From assembly GCA_022778585.1 (NCBI GenBank), contig JALFTI010000006.1, forward strand, positions 1 through 64,000: 64,000 nt of DNA. The letters are read 5' to 3'. The first letter of the stretch is position 1. Each line of letters opens with the position of its first letter. Positions 45,899-58,026 of this stretch are shown one piece after another. Both the position numbers and the translations under genes were made by a program. Below the pieces are notes generated by a model that did no database searches, was not told the origin of the DNA, and saw only the letters and a list, made by a program, of their open reading frames with translations. Source of the DNA: Pygmaiobacter massiliensis (GTDB taxonomy: Bacteria > Bacillota > Clostridia > Oscillospirales > Ruminococcaceae).

Positions 45899-46750
45899 TT
45901 AGCGGTCAAATAAAGCACGGCGAGCGGTAGAACGGCGGAACAGCTCCTTCATGCCGTCAAAATCCTCCTGGTCAATCATCTGGCGTAGTTTTCCAAGCTG
46001 TGCCTGGAAAGCATCCAGCTGGGCCAGTAAGGGGGCCTTGTTCATAACAAACAATTCGCTCCACATATTCTCGTTAATCCGGGCAATGCGGGTTAAATCC
46101 CGGAAAGAATCGCCGGTATAATTCTGCAAGTTTTCGTCTTCGTTGCAGGTCATTAAGGAAACGGCGATCAAATGGGTTAACTGTGAAACAAAGCCAATAA
46201 TCTCGTCATGCTGGGCGATGGTAAGCCGCGTAACCTTAGAAAAACCCAAAAGTGCCCCCAGCTCAATGGCCGTTTGAATGCCTTCTTCGGTGTTATGGTC
46301 GGTAGGAACAACAATAAAGTTTGCCGCACCAAAAATGGCATCTGTGCTGTTACGCACACCATACACTTCCCGGCCAGCCATTGGGTGACAGCCTACCAGT
46401 TCCAGGTCCGGGCGCAAAAAGTTTTGAATCACATCCAATACGCCGCCTTTTACGCCGGAAACATCGGTCAGCAAGGTTCCGGGAGCAAACAAATGCTGGT
46501 ACTGGCGTACCCATTCAATTTCTACCTTCGGGTAAAGGCCCAAAATGACCAGCTGTGCCTGGCCGATCATTTCGGGGTCTGGGCGGGTAGAACCGGCTTT
46601 AATAAAGCCTTCGTGCAGTGCATAGCCAATGCTGTCGGGATTTTGGTCAATGGCCTCCACATGGCACCCGGCTTTGTGCAGTGCCCGGGCGTAGCTGCCG
46701 CCAATGAGTCCCAACCCTACAATTAAAATGTGAGTATTTTTATGGATCAT
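45899..46750 (-). CDS. tyrA: Prephenate dehydrogenase (no obvious ACT domain)
   Basis: ILIVGLGLIGGSYARAL; LVGCHPMAGREVYGVRNS; ATG 46750 overlaps aroA stop (ATGA). Confidence 0.88.
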   Translation of the reverse strand: MIHKNTHILIVGLGLIGGSYARALHKAGCHVEAIDQNPDSIGYALHEGFIKAGSTRPDPEMIGQAQLVILGLYPKVEIEWVRQYQHLFAPGTLLTDVSGVKGGVLDVIQNFLRPDLELVGCHPMAGREVYGVRNSTDAIFGAANFIVVPTDHNTEEGIQTAIELGALLGFSKVTRLTIAQHDEIIGFVSQLTHLIAVSLMTCNEDENLQNYTGDSFRDLTRIARINENMWSELFVMNKAPLLAQLDAFQAQLGKLRQMIDQEDFDGMKELFRRSTARRALFDR

Positions 46751-48018
46751 TCCAATACCTCCACCCGAATGCCGGCTTTTGATAAATCCTGCCAAAAGTC
46801 TGGGTAGCTTTTCGCCACAGCTTCGGCGCCTTCTATCACGGTGGGCACTTCCAGTGCGGCAGCGGCTACCGCCAGTGCCATGGCAATGCGGTGGTCATTA
46901 TGGGAGAATACGGTGTACTCTTTGACCGACCGAAGAGTCCGGGCGCAGGAAAGCTCAATTTCATTTTCCGAAGCTTTGGCAGCAAAGCCCAGCTTTGCAA
47001 GCTCTTGGCACATGGCGTCGACCCGGTCGCTTTCTTTATACCGCAGCCGGGCGGTGTTCAAAAGGCGCAGACCGTTTTGGGTAAAACAGCCCATCACCAT
47101 GGCAACAGGGCCCAGGTCCGGGCAGTCTGCCAGGTCCAACTCGCCGCCGGTCAAAGTGCCGGCAGCTACCGTTATTTTGTCGGGCAAAGGTTTTACTTGC
47201 GCGCCCAAACGGGAAAGAAATTTGAAAAACACGGCATCGCCCTGACAACTGTCCGGGCGAAGACCCATGCACTGCATACGCCCGCACAGCGCACCCAAAA
47301 GCGCAAAAAAGGCAGCGCCGCTGTAATCACCCTCTATTTCCAAAACAGTTGGCCGGTAGTGTTGGCCGCCCGGAATAAAAAGAGTGTTTTCCGAGGAAAA
47401 TTCGGCTTTTACGCCAAACTGCCGCAGCACCGACACGGTCATGGAAAGATAACTGCGGGATTCAAAAGGAGGCAGAATTTCGAGCGTACTGTCCTGCCCG
47501 CACAGCGGCAGCGCAAATGCAAGACCTGAAAAAAACTGGCTGGAAATGCTGCCTGCAAGCCGGTAGTGACCGGCTTTAAGCGGACCCGCTGCCCGAATGC
47601 AGTCGGCAGATTGTTCGAATAAAAGACCATTTTGGGCGAAAAGTTCAGCGTATACCGACTGAGGCCGCGCCAAAAGCCGGCCGTTACCGGTAAAGCGGTG
47701 CTCCGCTGTGCCCAGTGAAAAAATAGGGATCAAAAAGCGCAGGGTGGAACCGGATTCCTGGCAAAACACCTCGCCGGGCGCCGCCAGCCGAGGGTCGCAG
47801 CCGGTTACCCGAACAGTGTCGCCCAATATTGTGACCTGTGCGCCCAATGTCTGCAAGACATTTACAGTGGCGGCAATGTCCTGGCTGGTGCCAACCCCTT
47901 TTATTACGCTTTCACCACCGGCCAAGGCTGCGGCAATAAGGGCCCGGTGGGCCATGCTTTTGGAAGCAGGCGCCGTTACGCAGCCGTCCACCCGGCCGGG
48001 CCATACCCGCACCCGCAT
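46747..48018 (-). CDS. aroA: 3-phosphoshikimate 1-carboxyvinyltransferase (EPSP synthase)
   Basis: SKSMAHRALIAAALAGG; SGSTLRFLIPI; RYKESDRVDAM; NDHRIAMALAVAA. Confidence 0.95.
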   Translation of the reverse strand: MRVRVWPGRVDGCVTAPASKSMAHRALIAAALAGGESVIKGVGTSQDIAATVNVLQTLGAQVTILGDTVRVTGCDPRLAAPGEVFCQESGSTLRFLIPIFSLGTAEHRFTGNGRLLARPQSVYAELFAQNGLLFEQSADCIRAAGPLKAGHYRLAGSISSQFFSGLAFALPLCGQDSTLEILPPFESRSYLSMTVSVLRQFGVKAEFSSENTLFIPGGQHYRPTVLEIEGDYSGAAFFALLGALCGRMQCMGLRPDSCQGDAVFFKFLSRLGAQVKPLPDKITVAAGTLTGGELDLADCPDLGPVAMVMGCFTQNGLRLLNTARLRYKESDRVDAMCQELAKLGFAAKASENEIELSCARTLRSVKEYTVFSHNDHRIAMALAVAAAALEVPTVIEGAEAVAKSYPDFWQDLSKAGIRVEVLE

Positions 48019-49034
48019 TACAGGCTCCGGCCCACCACCTTGGCGATGGCGCGGCCCTTTTCCATTAAGCTGGCAAACTGTTCGGGGTACAGGCTTTGGG
48101 CACCGTCCGAAGCGGCATGGGGCGGGTCGGTGTGAACCTCAATGATCAGCCCGTCGGCACCGGCCGCAATGGCTGCAAGCGACATGGCTTCTACCAGCTT
48201 GCGGTCGCCGGTAGCGTGGGAAGGATCAATTACAATGGGCAGATGGCTGCGCTGCTTAATGATAGGCACCACCGACAGGTCCAAGGTATTGCGGGTATAT
48301 TTTTCAAAGGTGCGAATGCCTCTTTCGCACAGAATAACCTTTTCGTTGCCGCCCGCCATAATATATTCGGCGCTCATAAGCCATTCTTCAATGGTATTGG
48401 CAAGACCACGCTTGAGCAAAATGGGTTTATCAATACGGCCCAGCTCCTTGAGCAGCTGAAAGTTCTGCATGTTGCGGGCACCTACCTGAATCAGATCCAC
48501 ATGCTCCACAAATTCGTCAATTTTATCAGCGCTCATCAATTCTGTAACGATTGGCATATGGTACCGCTCGCGCACTTCGGCCATGTACTGAATACCTTCC
48601 AGTCCAAGCCCCTGGAAGGAGTAGGGGCTAGTGCGGGGCTTATAGGCGCCGCCCCGGAACAAAACCGCACCGGCCTTTTTTACTTCGCAAGCGATCTGAT
48701 CGGTCAGTTCCCGGTTTTCAATAGCACAGGGACCGGCCATAACGGCGATGGGCTGCCCTGCACCAATTTTAACGCCGCCCACATCCACTACGGTATCTTC
48801 CGGGTGAAATACGCGGTTGGCCAGCTTATAAGGGGCGCTCACCCGCTGCACATTATCCACAAAGGGCAAACCTTCAATTTTGCGGGCGTCCAGCGAGGTG
48901 GTGTTGCCCACCAGACCAAATACATTGTAGTCGGTACCTTGAATTTCGGTGGCAGAGATGCCCTGGCTTTCCAGCTCGCGCAGCAGGCGGTCGATCTCCT
49001 GGCGCGGAGCATTTTTCTTCATCGTGATAATCAT
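48018..49034 (-). CDS. aroF: 3-deoxy-7-phosphoheptulonate synthase with N-terminal ferredoxin-like domain
   Basis: IAVMAGPCAIENREL; FRGGAYKPRTSPYSFQG; PIVIDPSHATGDR; TAATG overlap with aroA. Confidence 0.95.
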   Translation of the reverse strand: MIITMKKNAPRQEIDRLLRELESQGISATEIQGTDYNVFGLVGNTTSLDARKIEGLPFVDNVQRVSAPYKLANRVFHPEDTVVDVGGVKIGAGQPIAVMAGPCAIENRELTDQIACEVKKAGAVLFRGGAYKPRTSPYSFQGLGLEGIQYMAEVRERYHMPIVTELMSADKIDEFVEHVDLIQVGARNMQNFQLLKELGRIDKPILLKRGLANTIEEWLMSAEYIMAGGNEKVILCERGIRTFEKYTRNTLDLSVVPIIKQRSHLPIVIDPSHATGDRKLVEAMSLAAIAAGADGLIIEVHTDPPHAASDGAQSLYPEQFASLMEKGRAIAKVVGRSL

Positions 49035-49085: not shown

Positions 49086-49547
49086 TTACAATGTTTTTTC
49101 CTCCGGCAAGTTGTTTGAAAGCAGATGGGCTTTCAAAAGCCGAATGGCATGGGCGTAGCCGGAAAGCCCCTCGCCCGATATGGTAGCAATACAAGCGGCA
49201 CGGATATAACTGATCTGACGAAAATCCTCACGGCTTGCCACATCCGATATGTGAACTTCTACTGTGGGCAGAGATACCGCTTTCACCGCATCCAGCAGTG
49301 CCACACTGGTGTGGGTATAGGCGGCGGGGTTTATTACAATGCCGTCGCAATCGCCCAAAGCCTGCTGAATCTGATCCACCAGGTCGCCTTCGTGGTTGGA
49401 TTGAAAACAGCGAAACGCAATGTTTTCCTGCCGGCAGGTATCGGCAACCAGCTTTTCCAGGTCCTGGTAGGTTTCACGGCCGTACACATCCGGTTCCCGA
49501 ATACCCAAAAGGTTTAGGTTGGGGCCATTCAAGATTAAAAATTTCAT
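49086..49547 (-). CDS. aroQ: Type II 3-dehydroquinate dehydratase
   Basis: MKFLILNGPNLNLLGIREPDVYG; QSNHEGDLVDQIQ; GIVINPAAYTHTSVAL. Confidence 0.95.
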   Translation of the reverse strand: MKFLILNGPNLNLLGIREPDVYGRETYQDLEKLVADTCRQENIAFRCFQSNHEGDLVDQIQQALGDCDGIVINPAAYTHTSVALLDAVKAVSLPTVEVHISDVASREDFRQISYIRAACIATISGEGLSGYAHAIRLLKAHLLSNNLPEEKTL

Positions 49548-50782
49548 AAAGCACACTCCCCGATCCGGTCTGCTGCCTGCTGCAGGCTGCCGGCGTTTTC
49601 AATACGGTAATCGGCACAGGCGCAGTAAATGGGGTAGCGCTCTTCATAGCGTTTGCGGCTGGCAGCCCGGTCTGCTGCCAGCGGGCGGCCGTGCCCCACC
49701 TCCAAAAGCTCCAGTGGACGGTCCAAAAAGAACAGCCTGCCGTTTTGGCGAAGGTTTTCCAAATTTTTCTGGCGCAGCACCGCACCGCCCCCAGTGGCAA
49801 TCACCAGGCCGTTCTTTGCGCCGAAGCGAGCACAAATCTGCTCTTCCATCTGCCGGAAAACCTCTTCGCCCTGTGTTTGGAAAATTTGTGCGATCGGGCA
49901 GCCTGCCTCCTTCACGATCTCTTCATCCAGATCCACAAAGGTGCGGCCGGTAGTTTGGGCTAAAAGTTTGCCCACGGTGGACTTTCCGCTGCCGGGCATG
50001 CCGATCAGCACAAGGTTGGTTTTTTGAAAAAGAAGATCCGCATAAACTTGGTCAATTTTTTGGGGGTCAAGAGGATGGTCCAAAAATTTTTCGCAGGCGT
50101 AAACCGCCTGAGCTACCAGCATATAAAGCCCGCCTTCGGCAATATGGCCGGCAGCCTGTGTGCGCAAAACCAGGCGGCTGCGCAGCGGGTTGTAAATGGC
50201 GTCCAGCGCTGCTTCCAGTTTGGGAAAACAGCCGGGATCAATGGGACAATCCTGGGCGTTGGGGTACATACCGCAGGGGGTGGCGTTTACAATAATTTGA
50301 ATGTCGGACCGCTCGCTGGCCTGCTGGTAGGTGAGCGCACTGCCTTTGCCGGTTCGGCTGGCCACCAAAACTTCCCGCGCGCCTAGATGAGCCAGCACCG
50401 CGCGGGCGGTTTTGCTGGTACCGCCGGTACCCAACACCAGGCAGACCTTGCCGGCGGGGTTTGTCCCGCTGTGGGAAAACAGCGCTTTCATGCCGTCAAA
50501 GTCGGTGTTGTAACCGCAAAGCCGTCCGTTTTTGTTTACAATAGTGTTCACCGCCCCAATGGCTTGGGCCTGCGGGTCGATCTCGTCCAAAAAGGGGATG
50601 ACTGCTTCCTTATAGGGAATGGTGACATTCAGCGCCTGGAAAGCTTTCTGTTCGAGAAAGCCGGCCAATTGGTCAGGGGCAAGTTCAATCAGGTCGTAAG
50701 TATAATCGGCGAGCTGCTCGTGAATCTGCTTGGAAAAGCTGTGGGAGAGGTGTTCGCCCAAAAGTCCGTACCGTTGTATCAT
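49544..50782 (-). CDS. Fused shikimate dehydrogenase (N-term) / shikimate kinase (C-term)
   Basis: AroE motifs GLLGEHLSHSFSKQIH, NVTIPYKEAV, GAVNTIV, NTDFDG, then AroK motifs LIGMPGSGKSTVGKLLA, DLDEEIV, GGGAVLR in one frame. Confidence 0.94.
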   Translation of the reverse strand: MIQRYGLLGEHLSHSFSKQIHEQLADYTYDLIELAPDQLAGFLEQKAFQALNVTIPYKEAVIPFLDEIDPQAQAIGAVNTIVNKNGRLCGYNTDFDGMKALFSHSGTNPAGKVCLVLGTGGTSKTARAVLAHLGAREVLVASRTGKGSALTYQQASERSDIQIIVNATPCGMYPNAQDCPIDPGCFPKLEAALDAIYNPLRSRLVLRTQAAGHIAEGGLYMLVAQAVYACEKFLDHPLDPQKIDQVYADLLFQKTNLVLIGMPGSGKSTVGKLLAQTTGRTFVDLDEEIVKEAGCPIAQIFQTQGEEVFRQMEEQICARFGAKNGLVIATGGGAVLRQKNLENLRQNGRLFFLDRPLELLEVGHGRPLAADRAASRKRYEERYPIYCACADYRIENAGSLQQAADRIGECAL

Positions 50783-50812
50783 ATTTTTTATACTCCTTTG
50801 TGGGGGCAAACC

Positions 50813-51928
50813 TTAGGTGTTATGCCCCAGCTGCCAGTCGGTTCCATACCGCAGGCTGCACAAATCCACAAGGCCAATGGCAACCACACTGTCCATAACA
50901 ACCCGTGCCCGGTGTACAATAGCCGGGTCGTGCCGGCCCTCTATGGTAATGGTGGCAGGGGTTTTTTCTGCCAGGTTTACGGTTTGCTGCGGTTTATAAA
51001 TGGAAGGGGTGGGTTTCACAGCGCTGCGCACCACCAAAGGCATTCCATTGGTAATACCGCCGTTAACGCCGCCGTTATGGTTGGTGGCGGTATAAACCTT
51101 GCCGTCGGCATCCAAACAAAAAGGATCATTGGCGGTGCTGCCATGCATATTTGCCAATGCGAAGCCGGATCCAAATTCGACCCCCTTCACGGCGGGAACC
51201 GAAAATAAAAGTTTGGCCAAAACGCCTTCCACTGTGTCAAACCAGGGTTCCCCAAGTCCGGCCGGAAGGCCGGTCACCACCGTTTCCACCACACCGCCTA
51301 CCGAGTCGGCGTCCTGGCGGGCTGCTTCGGCTGCTTTCTGCATCTGTTCGGCTGCCTGGGGAGAAACCGTGGCGAAAACCGATTGGTTGAGCTGCTTGAG
51401 GGTAGCGGTCAGGGCGGGCTCGGCCATGGGCAGCGGGGCGTCGGGAATGCCGGCGCAGGAGGCAATATGGCTTGCCACCGTAATATTATGGTTTTGCAAA
51501 ATTTGCACCGCCACGGCACCGGCTGCCACAAGCGCTGCGGTAATGCGGCCGGAAAAATGTCCGCCCCCCCGCGCATCCTGAAACCCGTGGTATTTGCACT
51601 GGGCGGTGTAGTCGGCGTGGGATGGACGCGGCCGGTTTTTAAGCGAATCGTAATCGGCGCTGTGCTGTTGGGTGTTGGGAATTAAAATGGTAAGCGGGGA
51701 ACCGGTGGTATACCCCTGCGAAAGGCCGCTCACAATGGAAAATTCATCCTGTTCCTGGCGGGCAGTGGAAATTTTGCCGGCGGGCCGGCGCAGGGTCAGC
51801 TGGTGGCGAATTAGGTTTAGGTCCAACGCAATACCGGGCGCTACGCCGTCCAGCACTGCGCCGATCATCTCCCCGTGGGATTCGCCAAATAAAGTAACGG
51901 CAAAGCTTTCGCCGATGGTGTTTTTCAT
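50813..51928 (-). CDS. aroC: Chorismate synthase
   Basis: GESHGEMIGAVLDGVAPG; RPSHADYTAQCKYHGFQDARGGGHFSGR. Confidence 0.96.
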   Translation of the reverse strand: MKNTIGESFAVTLFGESHGEMIGAVLDGVAPGIALDLNLIRHQLTLRRPAGKISTARQEQDEFSIVSGLSQGYTTGSPLTILIPNTQQHSADYDSLKNRPRPSHADYTAQCKYHGFQDARGGGHFSGRITAALVAAGAVAVQILQNHNITVASHIASCAGIPDAPLPMAEPALTATLKQLNQSVFATVSPQAAEQMQKAAEAARQDADSVGGVVETVVTGLPAGLGEPWFDTVEGVLAKLLFSVPAVKGVEFGSGFALANMHGSTANDPFCLDADGKVYTATNHNGGVNGGITNGMPLVVRSAVKPTPSIYKPQQTVNLAEKTPATITIEGRHDPAIVHRARVVMDSVVAIGLVDLCSLRYGTDWQLGHNT

Positions 51929-51978: not shown

Positions 51979-52980
51979 TTACAATAGCTGGCGCAGCGAA
52001 GCGGTGGGTACTTGTTCCAGCCGCGCCTGGCCGGGCAGGTCCACCTTTACTACGGTGGTGGTGGTTCCGCTGCCTTTTTTGTCATGGCAAATGGCCTGGT
52101 AGGCCGCCTCGCGGTCAAAGGAGGCGCTGGTGGGAAGACCGTATTTTTCCAATGTGGCCTTTACCCGTGCACGCAGTTCGGGGGTTTGGCACATGGGCAG
52201 CATGCCAATACCTACGCATTCCCCGTGTAAAAGCTCTCCAAGCCCCACTGCGCTTTCAATGCCATGACCCAATGTGTGACCAAAGTTTAAGGTTTTGCGC
52301 AGGCCAGATTCCTTTTCATCCTTTTCCACCACATATTTTTTTACCACCAGGCTGCGCCAGATTACTTCGTCCAGCTTTTCCAGTGCATTTTCCTGTTCAA
52401 AAATATGAAACAGCACCTCGTCGCCAATCAAGCCGGTTTTCAGCGCCTCGGCTAAACCGTTCACCAGTTGGCGGTGGTTTTGGGTCGAAAGAGTGTCCGG
52501 GTCAATCAGCACCCGTTTGGGCTGGTAAAAAGCCCCCACAATGTTTTTCACCCCATTAAAATCGATGGCGACCTTGCCGCCAATGGAAGAATCTACCTGG
52601 GAAAGAGTGGTGGTGGGAATGTTGTAAAAATCCACTCCGCGCATATAGCTGCTGGCCACAAATCCGGCAAGGTCTCCCACCACACCGCCACCTACTGCCA
52701 CCACGCAATCGGCGCGGGTAAAGCCGGCGGCAAGCATCTGTCCAAGCAGGTCTGCATATACCGAAAGGCATTTGCTCTGTTCGCCTTCCGGCACACAGGC
52801 AATGGTAGGCGCCTTGCACTGGGCGGCCAGCCGCTGTGCATACTGGGCGGGCACGCCGCTGTCGGTTACAACAAATACCCGGCGTTCCAGGTTCAGGTGT
52901 TCTTTGGCCTTATCCAAAAGGCCGTGTCCCAAAAGAATGTCGTAACTGTCGGCGCCCAGATCCATATGCAAAATTTTCAT
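51979..52980 (-). CDS. aroB: 3-dehydroquinate synthase
   Basis: CVVAVGGGVVGDLAGFVASSYMRGVDFYNIPTTTLSQVDSSIGGKVAID; LNFGHTLGHGIES. Confidence 0.96.
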   Translation of the reverse strand: MKILHMDLGADSYDILLGHGLLDKAKEHLNLERRVFVVTDSGVPAQYAQRLAAQCKAPTIACVPEGEQSKCLSVYADLLGQMLAAGFTRADCVVAVGGGVVGDLAGFVASSYMRGVDFYNIPTTTLSQVDSSIGGKVAIDFNGVKNIVGAFYQPKRVLIDPDTLSTQNHRQLVNGLAEALKTGLIGDEVLFHIFEQENALEKLDEVIWRSLVVKKYVVEKDEKESGLRKTLNFGHTLGHGIESAVGLGELLHGECVGIGMLPMCQTPELRARVKATLEKYGLPTSASFDREAAYQAICHDKKGSGTTTTVVKVDLPGQARLEQVPTASLRQLL

Positions 52981-53000: not shown

Positions 53001-53041
53001 AAATAAAAAACCGGCGGTCTGCTGTGCGCAGTCCGCCGGTT
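53001..53041 (-). terminator. Attenuator terminator upstream of aroB
   Basis: Minus strand AACCGGCGG-A-CTGC-GCACA-GCAG-A-CCGCCGGTT-TTTTATTT, between leader ORF and aroB. Confidence 0.9.
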
Positions 53042-53070
53042 CTGATCCTCTTTGATTATTCCCCGAAAGA

Positions 53071-53163
53071 TCAGCCCTCATTGGCACAGCAGAAATAAGC
53101 CTTGGTAAAGTAAAAACCAAAGCGAAAGGAAAAATATTCTGCTGCGAGATTGAGCCGATCCAT
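53071..53163 (-). CDS. Phe/Tyr-rich attenuation leader peptide of the aro operon (30 aa)
   Basis: Translation MDRLNLAAEYFSFRFGFYFTKAYFCCANEG*: 6 Phe + 3 Tyr; SD GGGAG 5 nt before ATG; followed by terminator, then aroB. Confidence 0.88.
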   Translation of the reverse strand: MDRLNLAAEYFSFRFGFYFTKAYFCCANEG

Positions 53164-53218
53164 AAAAACTCCCAAACCACACCGCATTGCGGCAAATGTA
53201 ACAGAATGTTATAGGTCG

Positions 53219-53247
53219 ATTATATGCAAACTTTTTAGGAAAGTCAA
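53219..53247 (-). promoter_or_regulatory. Sigma-A promoter of the aro operon leader
   Basis: Minus strand TTGACT-N17-TATAAT, located between pheA stop and the leader ORF. Confidence 0.85.
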
Positions 53248-53279
53248 GCCTTCCAAGCGGTTTTTGGCACACCAAAGTT

Positions 53280-54356
53280 TCATTCCACTCTGGTATAACA
53301 GCCCAGTGTACGCAAACTGCCGCAAACGGTACCAAGCTTTTGCAGCATGGTTTGGGCGGCAGGGTCTGCCAGGTTGCCGTCCAGTTCGGCATAAAAATAA
53401 TATTCCCAGGGTAAATTTTTCATGGCACGGCTGCGCAGGCAGTGCATGTTAAAACCATGCTCGCTGATAATATCGACCGCCCGGGCAAGACAGCCTGTGT
53501 CGTTGGTTACCGTAAAGAACAGCCCGAACCGGTCGCCCGAAAGCCGCTCCTGCCGTGTAATGATGGCAAAGCGGGTGGTATTCACACTGCTGGAGTTGAT
53601 CTGCCGTTCCAGCACCGTAAGCCCGTAAAGTTCCGCCGTCTCTTCAGAAGCGATAGCGGCCTTGGAAGGATCTCCCGATTCGCTTACATAGGCTGCGGCT
53701 GCGGCCGTGTTGGGGTAGGGAACAAGCTGCCAGGGGCGCCCACGCAAAAAGTCAGAAGATTGATCCAGCGCCTGCTGGTGGGAATATACCTGGCGAATCT
53801 GTTCCATTTTGGTGCCGGGAAGCACCAAAAGATTTTGCTGAACAGCCAGGTTATACCAGCCGCTCACATAGCAATCCGGATGGGTAAACAACAGGTCCAT
53901 AACCTCGCCCACCTCGCCGGTGGTGCTGTTTTCAAAGGGCAGTACCCCAGCTTGAACTTCGCCGGATTCCACTGCTTCGATCACCTTTGCAAAGGTGGGA
54001 AAGGCAACGAGACCACTTTCCGGAAAAAGCCGCCTGGCAGTTATATGGGAAAACGCGCCCCGCATGCCCTGAAAGGCGACCTTTTCGCCAAATAAAAGCC
54101 GGGTTTGGTAGCGGCGGCTGGCTGCCATAACGGCCCGCATAAACGCGGCATAGTCTTCCTTCAGCGAAGCATCCTGCAAAAAGGCAGAATTTCGCTCAAT
54201 CACCAAAGCTTCCCGCGCAGGGTCAAAAATGGGTTTGCCGGTCTGCTTTTTATATTCGGCCACCTGGCCCACTGCTGCCATGCGCTCTTCAAAAAGGGCA
54301 GCCATCTGGCGGTCTACCCGGTCAATATCAGCCCGGGCCTGTTGTAAAAGATCCAT
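53280..54356 (-). CDS. pheA: Bifunctional chorismate mutase / prephenate dehydratase
   Basis: N-terminal CM (ARADIDRVDRQMAALFEERMAAVGQVAEYK), PDT (GMRGAFSHITARRLFPES...PFENSTTGEV), C-terminal ACT. Confidence 0.93.
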   Translation of the reverse strand: MDLLQQARADIDRVDRQMAALFEERMAAVGQVAEYKKQTGKPIFDPAREALVIERNSAFLQDASLKEDYAAFMRAVMAASRRYQTRLLFGEKVAFQGMRGAFSHITARRLFPESGLVAFPTFAKVIEAVESGEVQAGVLPFENSTTGEVGEVMDLLFTHPDCYVSGWYNLAVQQNLLVLPGTKMEQIRQVYSHQQALDQSSDFLRGRPWQLVPYPNTAAAAAYVSESGDPSKAAIASEETAELYGLTVLERQINSSSVNTTRFAIITRQERLSGDRFGLFFTVTNDTGCLARAVDIISEHGFNMHCLRSRAMKNLPWEYYFYAELDGNLADPAAQTMLQKLGTVCGSLRTLGCYTRVE

Positions 54357-54389
54357 AGCCTCTCCTTTGTTTGTGGACATATACTGGGG

Positions 54390-56705: not shown

Positions 56706-56734
56706 TTGACATTTTTGGTACGCAGGGGTATACT
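56706..56734 (+). promoter_or_regulatory. Sigma-A promoter of second DAHP synthase leader
   Basis: TTGACA-N17-TATACT. Confidence 0.85.
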
Positions 56735-56796: not shown

Positions 56797-56892
56797 ATGG
56801 CACACCTGCACACCACAGCGGTATACGCATATTATTACAGCTTCGGTTACCAGTTTACCGGGGCTTTTTTGGCTGTGCAACGCTGTGTGTGA
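56797..56892 (+). CDS. Tyr-rich attenuation leader peptide (31 aa)
   Basis: Translation MAHLHTTAVYAYYYSFGYQFTGAFLAVQRCV*: 5 Tyr + 3 Phe; SD AAGGAG 6 nt before ATG; followed by terminator, then DAHP synthase. Confidence 0.85.
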   Translation: MAHLHTTAVYAYYYSFGYQFTGAFLAVQRCV

Positions 56893-56913: not shown

Positions 56914-56950
56914 AACGCCCGCCTGCACCAGCAGGCGGGCGTTTTTTGTT
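56914..56950 (+). terminator. Attenuator terminator upstream of second DAHP synthase
   Basis: AACGCCCGCCTGC-ACCA-GCAGGCGGGCGTT-TTTTGTT (13-bp stem). Confidence 0.92.
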
Positions 56951-57012: not shown

Positions 57013-58026
57013 ATGATTATTGTTTTTAAGAAAAATGCCACCGAAGGACAAATTAAAACATTGGAAGGCGAGCTGCGAGCAATTGGGCTTGGTATTCACG
57101 AAAGTATAGGGGAACATTCGCGGCTGATCGGTTTAATTGGGGATGTTTCCCGGGTAGATATTGACCAACTGCAGGCAAACGATTTTATAGAAGAAATCAA
57201 GCGGATATCGGAGCCTTACAAAAAGGCAAACCGCAAATTCCACCCGGAAGACACGGTGATAGAAGCGGCCGGCGTTCAAATTGGTGGCGGCAGCTTTACG
57301 GTAATGGCTGGCCCTTGCAGTGTAGAGAGCGAAGCACAGATTGTGCAGGTAGCGAAAGATGTAAAAGCTTCCGGGGCAGCCTTTTTGCGGGGCGGCGCGT
57401 TTAAGCCGCGCACCAGTCCTTACTCATTTCAGGGGCTGCGGGGAGAAGGCCTTCATCTGCTGCAGACGGCCCGCAGCGCTACCGGTTTGCCGATTGTGAC
57501 CGAAATTATGAACACCGAGGATTTGCCCCTGTTTGAGGATGTGGATATCATACAGGTTGGGGCAAGAAATATGCAGAATTTTGAACTATTGAAGGCATTA
57601 GGCAAGCTGGGTAAACCTGTACTGCTCAAGCGCGGGCTTTCGGCCACTATTGAAGAATGGCTTATGAGCGCCGAATACATTATGGCCGGCGGCAATGAAA
57701 AGGTCATTCTCTGTGAACGGGGAATTCGCACCTTTGAGACCAGCATGCGCAACACGCTGGATATTTCTGCAGTTCCCATGGTCAAAGCAAAAAGTCATCT
57801 GCCGGTTGTTGTGGACCCGTCTCATGCGGCGGGAATTGCCTGGATGGTTGAACCGCTGGCGATGGCAGCCATTGCAGCCGGCGCGGATGGGCTGATGATT
57901 GAGGTACATAACGACCCCAAGCATGCTCTTTCGGATGGTGCTCAGAGCTTGACCCCGGCCCGTTTTGATGAATTGATGACGAAAATACGGCCCACTGTTG
58001 AATTCTTTGGCAAAAAAATAGGGTAA
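57013..58026 (+). CDS. aroF: 3-deoxy-7-phosphoheptulonate synthase, second isoenzyme
   Basis: Collinear with the 48018..49034 product: FTVMAGPCSVESEAQ, FLRGGAFKPRTSPYSFQG, PVVVDPSHAAG. Confidence 0.95.
   Translation: MIIVFKKNATEGQIKTLEGELRAIGLGIHESIGEHSRLIGLIGDVSRVDIDQLQANDFIEEIKRISEPYKKANRKFHPEDTVIEAAGVQIGGGSFTVMAGPCSVESEAQIVQVAKDVKASGAAFLRGGAFKPRTSPYSFQGLRGEGLHLLQTARSATGLPIVTEIMNTEDLPLFEDVDIIQVGARNMQNFELLKALGKLGKPVLLKRGLSATIEEWLMSAEYIMAGGNEKVILCERGIRTFETSMRNTLDISAVPMVKAKSHLPVVVDPSHAAGIAWMVEPLAMAAIAAGADGLMIEVHNDPKHALSDGAQSLTPARFDELMTKIRPTVEFFGKKIG

Follow-up and report, generated by a model that had tools for sequence, protein, structure and literature searches.

The leader region between pheA and aroB, at 53 kb on the minus strand of the window (the whole 64,000-nucleotide stretch of DNA that was analysed), is very probably a ribosome-mediated transcription attenuator by which the aroB-tyrA operon is regulated according to the supply of Phe-tRNA and Tyr-tRNA, with a paralogue serving a second DAHP synthase gene. 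This reading had been proposed in an initial annotation of the window, and it is supported by conserved leaders, covarying pairings and a predicted switch limited to ribosomes on or near the Phe/Tyr run. The seven-gene aro operon described downstream was confirmed as seven ORFs from aroB to tyrA, and pheA lies upstream of the attenuator:

51979-52980, minus strand: aroB, at the head of the operon under predicted control (TIGR01357 above cut-off)
50813-51928, minus strand: aroC (profile match)
49544-50809, minus strand: aroE-aroK fusion (best matches, under equivalog cut-offs)
49086-49556, minus strand: aroQ, type II dehydroquinase (profile match)
48018-49034, minus strand: DAHP synthase, operon copy (profile match)
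46747-48018, minus strand: aroA (profile match)
45899-46756, minus strand: tyrA, last operon gene (best matches, under equivalog cut-offs)
53280-54380, minus strand: pheA, chorismate mutase-prephenate dehydratase, outside the control of the attenuator (best matches, under equivalog cut-offs)

The leader locus consists, in the order in which it is read on the minus strand from 53247 to 52980, of a promoter, a Shine-Dalgarno sequence, the leader ORF, an intrinsic terminator and the Shine-Dalgarno sequence and ATG of aroB. Its parts, including the three pairing regions, are as follows:

53219-53247, minus strand: sigma-70-type promoter TTGACT-N17-TATAAT, 11 of 12 consensus positions
53169-53173, minus strand: Shine-Dalgarno GGGAG of the leader ORF, read from the sequence
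53071-53163, minus strand: leader peptide ORF of 30 codons, MDRLNLAAEYFSFRFGFYFTKAYFCCANEG and stop, with 9 Phe/Tyr codons (translation; orthologues throughout the genus)
53138-53144, minus strand: region 1, CAGCAGA, codons 7-9, partner of region 2 (sequence; partner-swap test)
53099-53123, minus strand: inner hairpin, GCUUUGGU, 9 nt and ACCAAGGC, within the Phe/Tyr codons (fold; covariation)
53084-53101, minus strand: region 2, TCTGCTGTGC/UCUGCUGUGC at 53093-53084 plus GGC at 53101-53099 (sequence; pairing tests)
53013-53027, minus strand: region 3, GCACAGCAGA at 53027-53018 plus GCC at 53015-53013, forming the terminator loop and inner 3' arm (sequence; co-variation with region 2)
53005-53041, minus strand: intrinsic terminator, hairpin 53041-53009 then T run (sequence and fold; dG -24.1 kcal/mol)

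The promoter, the Shine-Dalgarno sequence with its ORF, and regions 1, 2 and 3 lie exactly where the initial annotation had placed them, the 6 Phe and 3 Tyr codons which it counted in codons 10-24 were confirmed by translation, and its perfect 10-bp match of region 2 to region 3 and its strong terminator ahead of the aroB Shine-Dalgarno sequence and ATG (52980) were recovered. The constituents of a leader-peptide attenuator are thus present at the locus, namely a Shine-Dalgarno sequence, a start codon and an ORF with a Phe/Tyr run, with a terminator between this ORF and aroB. The leader stop is 90 nt from the aroB ATG, and the aroB Shine-Dalgarno sequence is about 20 nt past the terminator. 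With folding energies computed in ViennaRNA, without pseudoknots or tertiary effects, the leader RNA folded at -76.5 kcal/mol compared with -56.1 (sd 4.3) for shuffles (z = -4.7). The minimum-energy fold combines the 1:2 hairpin, the inner hairpin at 53123-53099 in the Phe/Tyr codons and the terminator. The inner hairpin, which is the best-supported structural part, and the second leader copy of the window had been missing from the initial annotation. This second copy is found on the plus strand:

56706-56734, plus strand: promoter TTGACA-N17-TATACT, read directly from the sequence
56797-56892, plus strand: second, paralogous leader ORF of 31 codons, MAHLHTTAVYAYYYSFGYQFTGAFLAVQRCV and stop (covariance-model match of 62 bits, E 1.3e-11, both window copies having belonged to the set from which the covariance models were built)
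56915-56947, plus strand: terminator of the second copy (dG -26.7 kcal/mol)
57013-58026, plus strand: second DAHP synthase gene, predicted to be controlled by the second leader (TIGR01361/NF006421 above cut-off)

The peptides of two leaders from one genome are alike (AAYFYFSFGYFFT and AAYYFSFGYYFT), and the two leaders of the window are therefore most simply read as paralogues. The nearest named relative of the host is Pygmaiobacter massiliensis, whose AroB is 70 % identical, and there the orthologous pair consists of the leader MNHINCTAAYYFSFGYYFTGASSAVPKRDL and a DAHP synthase 81 % identical to that of the window.

Conservation of the leader ORF and of the pairing regions in relatives, on which the initial annotation had suggested that its reading be judged, was examined and spoke in its favour. 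A leader is found between pheA and aroB in all seven genomes of the genus (7/7), with promoter and terminator conserved; the six other genomes have the promoter TTGACA...TATACT at the equivalent place. The Phe/Tyr run of the genus leaders, which include MEKRNFKAAYFYFSFGYFFTEANLCCANPV (P. massiliensis), MNRLNTTAAYFYFSFAYFYGKATLCCAKPV and MQNLSSCAAYYFYFDFAFYFSKVRSVLHKIGLSIR, starts at codon 10, and 144-160 nt separate the ATG from the T run. Conservation of the peptide exceeds its Phe/Tyr content and can be written AAxYFxFSFxFYFxKA. Within the genus, a covariance-model search returned nothing beyond the copies already known, of which the host's own genome has two. A genome-wide search with the pattern TWYTWYTTYACNGGNGC for YYFTGA leaders was abandoned, its matches being mostly chance ones inside proteins, and a metagenome scan with an AroB alignment returned no further members of the genus, the patterns used being too general. 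In the terminators of L003 and L005 (genomes G003 and G002, respectively) a change in the 3' arm results in a G-G mismatch, and region 2 pairs with this arm over 12 nt; only in these two copies does the antiterminator prevail at equilibrium for ribosomes on most of the Phe/Tyr run. Between genera the position of the leader differs: pheA and aroB are directly adjacent in most relatives, where a leader, if there is one, precedes pheA. It seems that the leader element was inserted at the pheA-aroB junction in this genus.

The element extends beyond the genus. A covariance model of 90 positions (model R1), built from the nine genus elements with the inner hairpin as its sole structure, was used to search 299 genomes of the order and gave 16 matches outside the genus, in 15 genomes; E-values of the model searches are rough throughout. 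All 16 are Phe/Tyr-rich leader ORFs, and the next gene encodes DAHP synthase in 15 cases and is tyrA in one. Since the model held no gene information, this association with genes of the pathway speaks independently for homology and function. A second covariance model (model R2), built from 25 elements, had matches in 47 of 398 genomes and 30 of 169 genera of the order, and in 16 of 393 genomes of the class. Inspection of 32 of its loci left 27 after four repeats of earlier elements and one locus at a contig edge had been removed, and these 27 are likewise Phe/Tyr leaders, before DAHP synthase (25) or pheA (2). Altogether 43 checked elements outside the genus, in 17 families, all precede DAHP synthase, pheA or tyrA. 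A terminator was detected by pattern in 25 of 31 R2 loci and is visible in further ones. One genome (G173) has two copies of the element, L353 and L365, which lie before tyrA and DAHP synthase.

The residue content of 48 leader peptides was 19.2 % Phe, 12.1 % Tyr and 0.2 % Trp, with a mean of 9.8 Phe/Tyr residues each. At 0.2 %, Trp is evidently no signal, though the pathway also feeds Trp, and Phe and Tyr are inseparable by sequence as the residue which would be sensed.

The pairings themselves co-vary. In an alignment of 25 sequences, 97.3 % of the cells of the inner hairpin were paired, a percentage inflated because the alignment had been fitted to the model and so to that hairpin; seven of its nine pairs had changed on both sides, with 40 two-sided cells. 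None of 500 shuffles reached any of these measures, and registers slid along the alignment paired at 31-59 %. The long-range pairings were assessed with a partner-swap test, in which the mean native pairing energy was compared with that obtained when terminators were dealt to other species (20,000 permutations). For 2:3, 12 non-redundant elements had a native mean of -17.1 compared with -13.1 (sd 0.8) after swapping, a value reached in 0/20,000 permutations. This was replicated with 16 elements outside both models (-17.1 compared with -11.8, sd 0.8; 0/20,000). The 1:2 pairing gave 0/20,000 across other families and 47/20000 inside the genus. The swap tests at 0/20,000 imply that regions 1, 2 and 3 evolve together. 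Swapping 2:3 within the genus was not significant (3035/20000), a comparison without power because region 3 hardly varies there. A register drawn up by hand for the outer pairs of 2:3 was post hoc and was set aside in favour of the unbiased swap tests.

In the window, UCUGCUGUGC of region 2 pairs with GCACAGCAGA, which covers the loop, the inner 3' arm and the edge of the inner 5' arm of the terminator, and a GGC:GCC helix extends the pairing deeper into the terminator 3' arm. The 3' strand of the 2:3 helix nearly adjoins the outer 3' arm, and this geometry suggests that a complete 2:3 helix and a complete terminator are mutually exclusive. When the region 2 stretch was shuffled, 17 of 2000 shuffles reached the energy of the window's 2:3 pairing with region 3; the counts per 2000 were 9 for G001, 2 for G002, 6 for G003, 3 for G005 and 97 for G004. 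The same test gave no support for 2:3 in G004b (712/2000) and G006 (336/2000), and the 2:3 pairing of the second window copy was not better than shuffled (1790/2000).

Switching was modelled by folding the RNA downstream of a ribosome placed at each position, with the terminator hairpin 62-100 % transcribed and the ribosome assumed to cover 12 nt downstream. At 88 % of the hairpin, about 13 antiterminator pairs are predicted in the window leader for a ribosome on any of codons 5-20, and the terminator for one on codons 1-3 or from about codons 21-22 to the stop. The copies of G001-G003 and G005 behave as that of the window does, and P. massiliensis switches for codons 11-17; G006 switches clearly only with 75 % of the hairpin, and the second window copy switches partly. 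This pattern on partly transcribed RNA is common to most of the nine genus copies. In 13 elements of other families, with 75 % of the hairpin made, a ribosome on the Phe/Tyr run is predicted to let upstream RNA pair with the part-made terminator; with the ribosome just past the run, this pairing is lost or weakened. Folding of the full-length leader at equilibrium was rejected as a switching test, because it fails in seven of the nine genus copies, that of the window included, where the terminator wins whatever the ribosome position; G002 and G003 are the exceptions, with terminator probabilities down to 0.01-0.54 for ribosomes on codons 12-19. The switch consequently needs co-transcriptional kinetics, in which the antiterminator forms first, and the folding model suggests that it would win by doing so, the usual way of attenuators.

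In the mechanism which we propose, transcription would start at the predicted promoter, and ample charged tRNA, or the lack of translation, would lead to the 1:2 pairing and the inner hairpin and so leave region 2 sequestered. With region 2 unavailable, the terminator would form and transcription would stop before aroB. A ribosome stalled on the Phe/Tyr run would cover region 1 and open the inner hairpin, and the freed region 2 could then capture the loop and inner stem at the tip of the emerging terminator, whose 3' arm would still be unfinished. With the 2:3 antiterminator in place, RNA polymerase would read through into the operon.

Other explanations of the locus were weighed against this mechanism. 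The hairpin could be just the 3' terminator of pheA, with the short ORF there by chance; pheA ends about 240 nt upstream of it on the same strand, so the hairpin would stop pheA transcripts too. The interval from pheA to the hairpin nevertheless contains a promoter and an ORF preceded by a Shine-Dalgarno sequence, both conserved within the genus, homologues are found before DAHP synthase with different upstream genes in 17 other families, and the pairings co-vary. Conservation thus refutes this account in the main, and we regard it as extremely improbable. Equally far-fetched is control by a T-box, a TRAP-type protein or a metabolite riboswitch with the ORF as an incidental feature. T-boxes are common in this genome, with 14 matches whose downstream genes include tyrS, pheS, trpS, leuA and a gene for a TrpX-like binding protein, and further ones which we take to be ilvD, thrS, cysS, alaS and asnB. 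Neither the aro operon nor the second DAHP synthase gene yielded a T-box match (RF00230), however, whether in the window at the gathering threshold or in a whole-genome search; TRAP (PF02081) was found in none of the seven genus genomes, the B. subtilis control being positive; no Rfam family reached its gathering threshold at the locus; and the coding run itself contains the strongest RNA structure, for which no ligand pocket is needed.

The leader peptide might itself act, either as a nascent chain which stalls the ribosome or, after release, in trans like the rhizobial peTrpL. Its conservation beyond Phe/Tyr content would fit, and a trans-acting attenuator peptide has been described (PMC7298713). 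Most of this conservation, however, coincides with RNA pairing segments, AAE with region 1, SFG..FTKA with the inner hairpin and the C-terminal residues with region 2, and tandem Phe/Tyr codons suffice to explain a stall, which makes action of the peptide very unlikely. Translational control, with translation of the leader exposing the aroB ribosome binding site by coupling, can point to the aroB Shine-Dalgarno sequence so close behind the terminator. Against it stand the GC-rich hairpin with its T run, the distance of the leader stop from the aroB ATG and the retention of the terminator in homologues while the gene spacing varies, and we consider it highly improbable. Transcription attenuation by a ribosome on the Phe/Tyr codons therefore remains the preferred reading.

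Leaders of a comparable kind are found in front of pheA genes. A Phe/Tyr leader with a terminator, by a strict definition, was present in 19 of 77 pheA upstream regions; in these regions Phe/Tyr scored highest of all residue pairs, and the antisense strand had none. In 40 stretches upstream of distant pheA genes (<40 % identity), which serve as a negative control, no convincing leader was found. Upstream of the pheA-aroB operons of other Clostridia there are more Phe/Tyr leaders with terminators, of at least three sequence types (...NNYFTFTYARFYAGFYCF..., ...KYFFSFSVVFYFGYAYFAMKKLLVR... and ...YYYF..AMD...). The second of these types was matched by model R2 (L388, L389) and may be remotely homologous to the family; the remaining types may be independent of it. 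Such leaders of other sequence types, most of them with terminators, lie directly before pheA-aroB operons in L039, L043, L044, L049, L050, L052, L057, L062, L063 and L068, and in the same setting in L069, L077, L081, L095, L109, L110, L288, L291, L294 and L295.

The attenuation mechanism is of a known kind and follows the classical trp/phe logic. In E. coli trp the antiterminator occupies the 5' arm of the terminator. The initial annotation had equated the window leader with this logic, which holds for the competing pairings; the antiterminator, however, takes the terminator loop and inner stem here and not the outer 5' arm. Proteobacterial trp, phe and his attenuators (RF01859 for pheA) share with the present element a promoter, a short residue-rich ORF, the competition of 1:2, 2:3 and the terminator, and a biosynthetic operon. 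Unlike them, the present element has the inner stem and loop of the terminator as its region 3, and its Phe/Tyr codons themselves contain a covarying hairpin; its host is a relative of Clostridium, and its main target family is DAHP synthase. No Rfam 15 family matched the window element at threshold; the best was Phe_leader (RF01859) with 19.3 bits against the required 55 (E 0.72), a match which spans the full model length though under the gathering score. At ten tested loci no Rfam family fitted at the leader position.

Control of aromatic amino acid genes in Firmicutes is usually ascribed to T-boxes, TRAP and DNA-binding repressors. The T-box (RF00230) resembles the present element in that it senses tRNA aminoacylation and differs in being absent from both aro loci. 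A T-box was observed just past the window end, at 64182-64442 of contig C8 of G000 (L274), before an O-acetylhomoserine sulfhydrylase-like gene. The initial annotation had considered the arrangement notable for Firmicutes; leader peptides are indeed unusual there, but precedents exist in S. aureus ilv, bacilli hisS and Acholeplasma aroF. The ilv-leu attenuator of S. aureus (PMC5794164) is also leader-peptide attenuation in a Firmicute, supported there by mutants and a reporter, but it has Leu/Ile codons, serves the ilv-leu operon and uses an antiterminator which pairs with the terminator U tail. The hisS/hisZ leaders of bacilli (PMC2965389) are Firmicute leader peptides with His codons in place of a T-box, and thus concern another residue and gene. 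The uORFC-13-1 motif (PMC8632094) is reported upstream of aroF in Acholeplasma and environmental sequences only (24 examples), and attenuation via the speed of Phe incorporation was suggested. It likewise combines a predicted uORF, containing one Phe codon or more, with an intrinsic terminator ahead of DAHP synthase; the text of that paper describes neither a Tyr run nor 1/2/3 pairings. Two candidate Phe/Tyr uORFs at shikimate genes are given one legend sentence in Stav et al. 2019 (PMC6429828, Fig. 6b), a study of five genomes, one of them that of Clostridium novyi; going by that legend, they may be members of the family or relatives. In a literature search with thin coverage of subscription journals, partial precedents only were found, and no prior description of the clostridial family, its inner hairpin or its loop-directed antiterminator.

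The elements lie before aromatic genes in 18 families, that of the genus included; this distribution was likewise absent from the papers searched, though an earlier description is possible. A short covariance model suffices to annotate the family. Routine gene calling passes over leaders of this length, and 'no known regulation' at such operons may therefore be an annotation gap. It is conceivable, though we hold it doubtful, that the elements form a separate Clostridia-wide RNA family at the shikimate entry, with loop-capture antitermination and with the inner hairpin as a second device, for example a polymerase-pausing timer, and not a spacer. If the hairpin is such a timer, it would keep ribosome and polymerase in step. 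In the genome of the window, where T-boxes precede the tRNA synthetase genes for Phe, Tyr and Trp and leaders precede biosynthetic genes, two readouts of tRNA charge are split by gene class. A large part of Clostridia, gut lineages included, appears to control the first enzyme of the pathway by stalling on Phe/Tyr codons.
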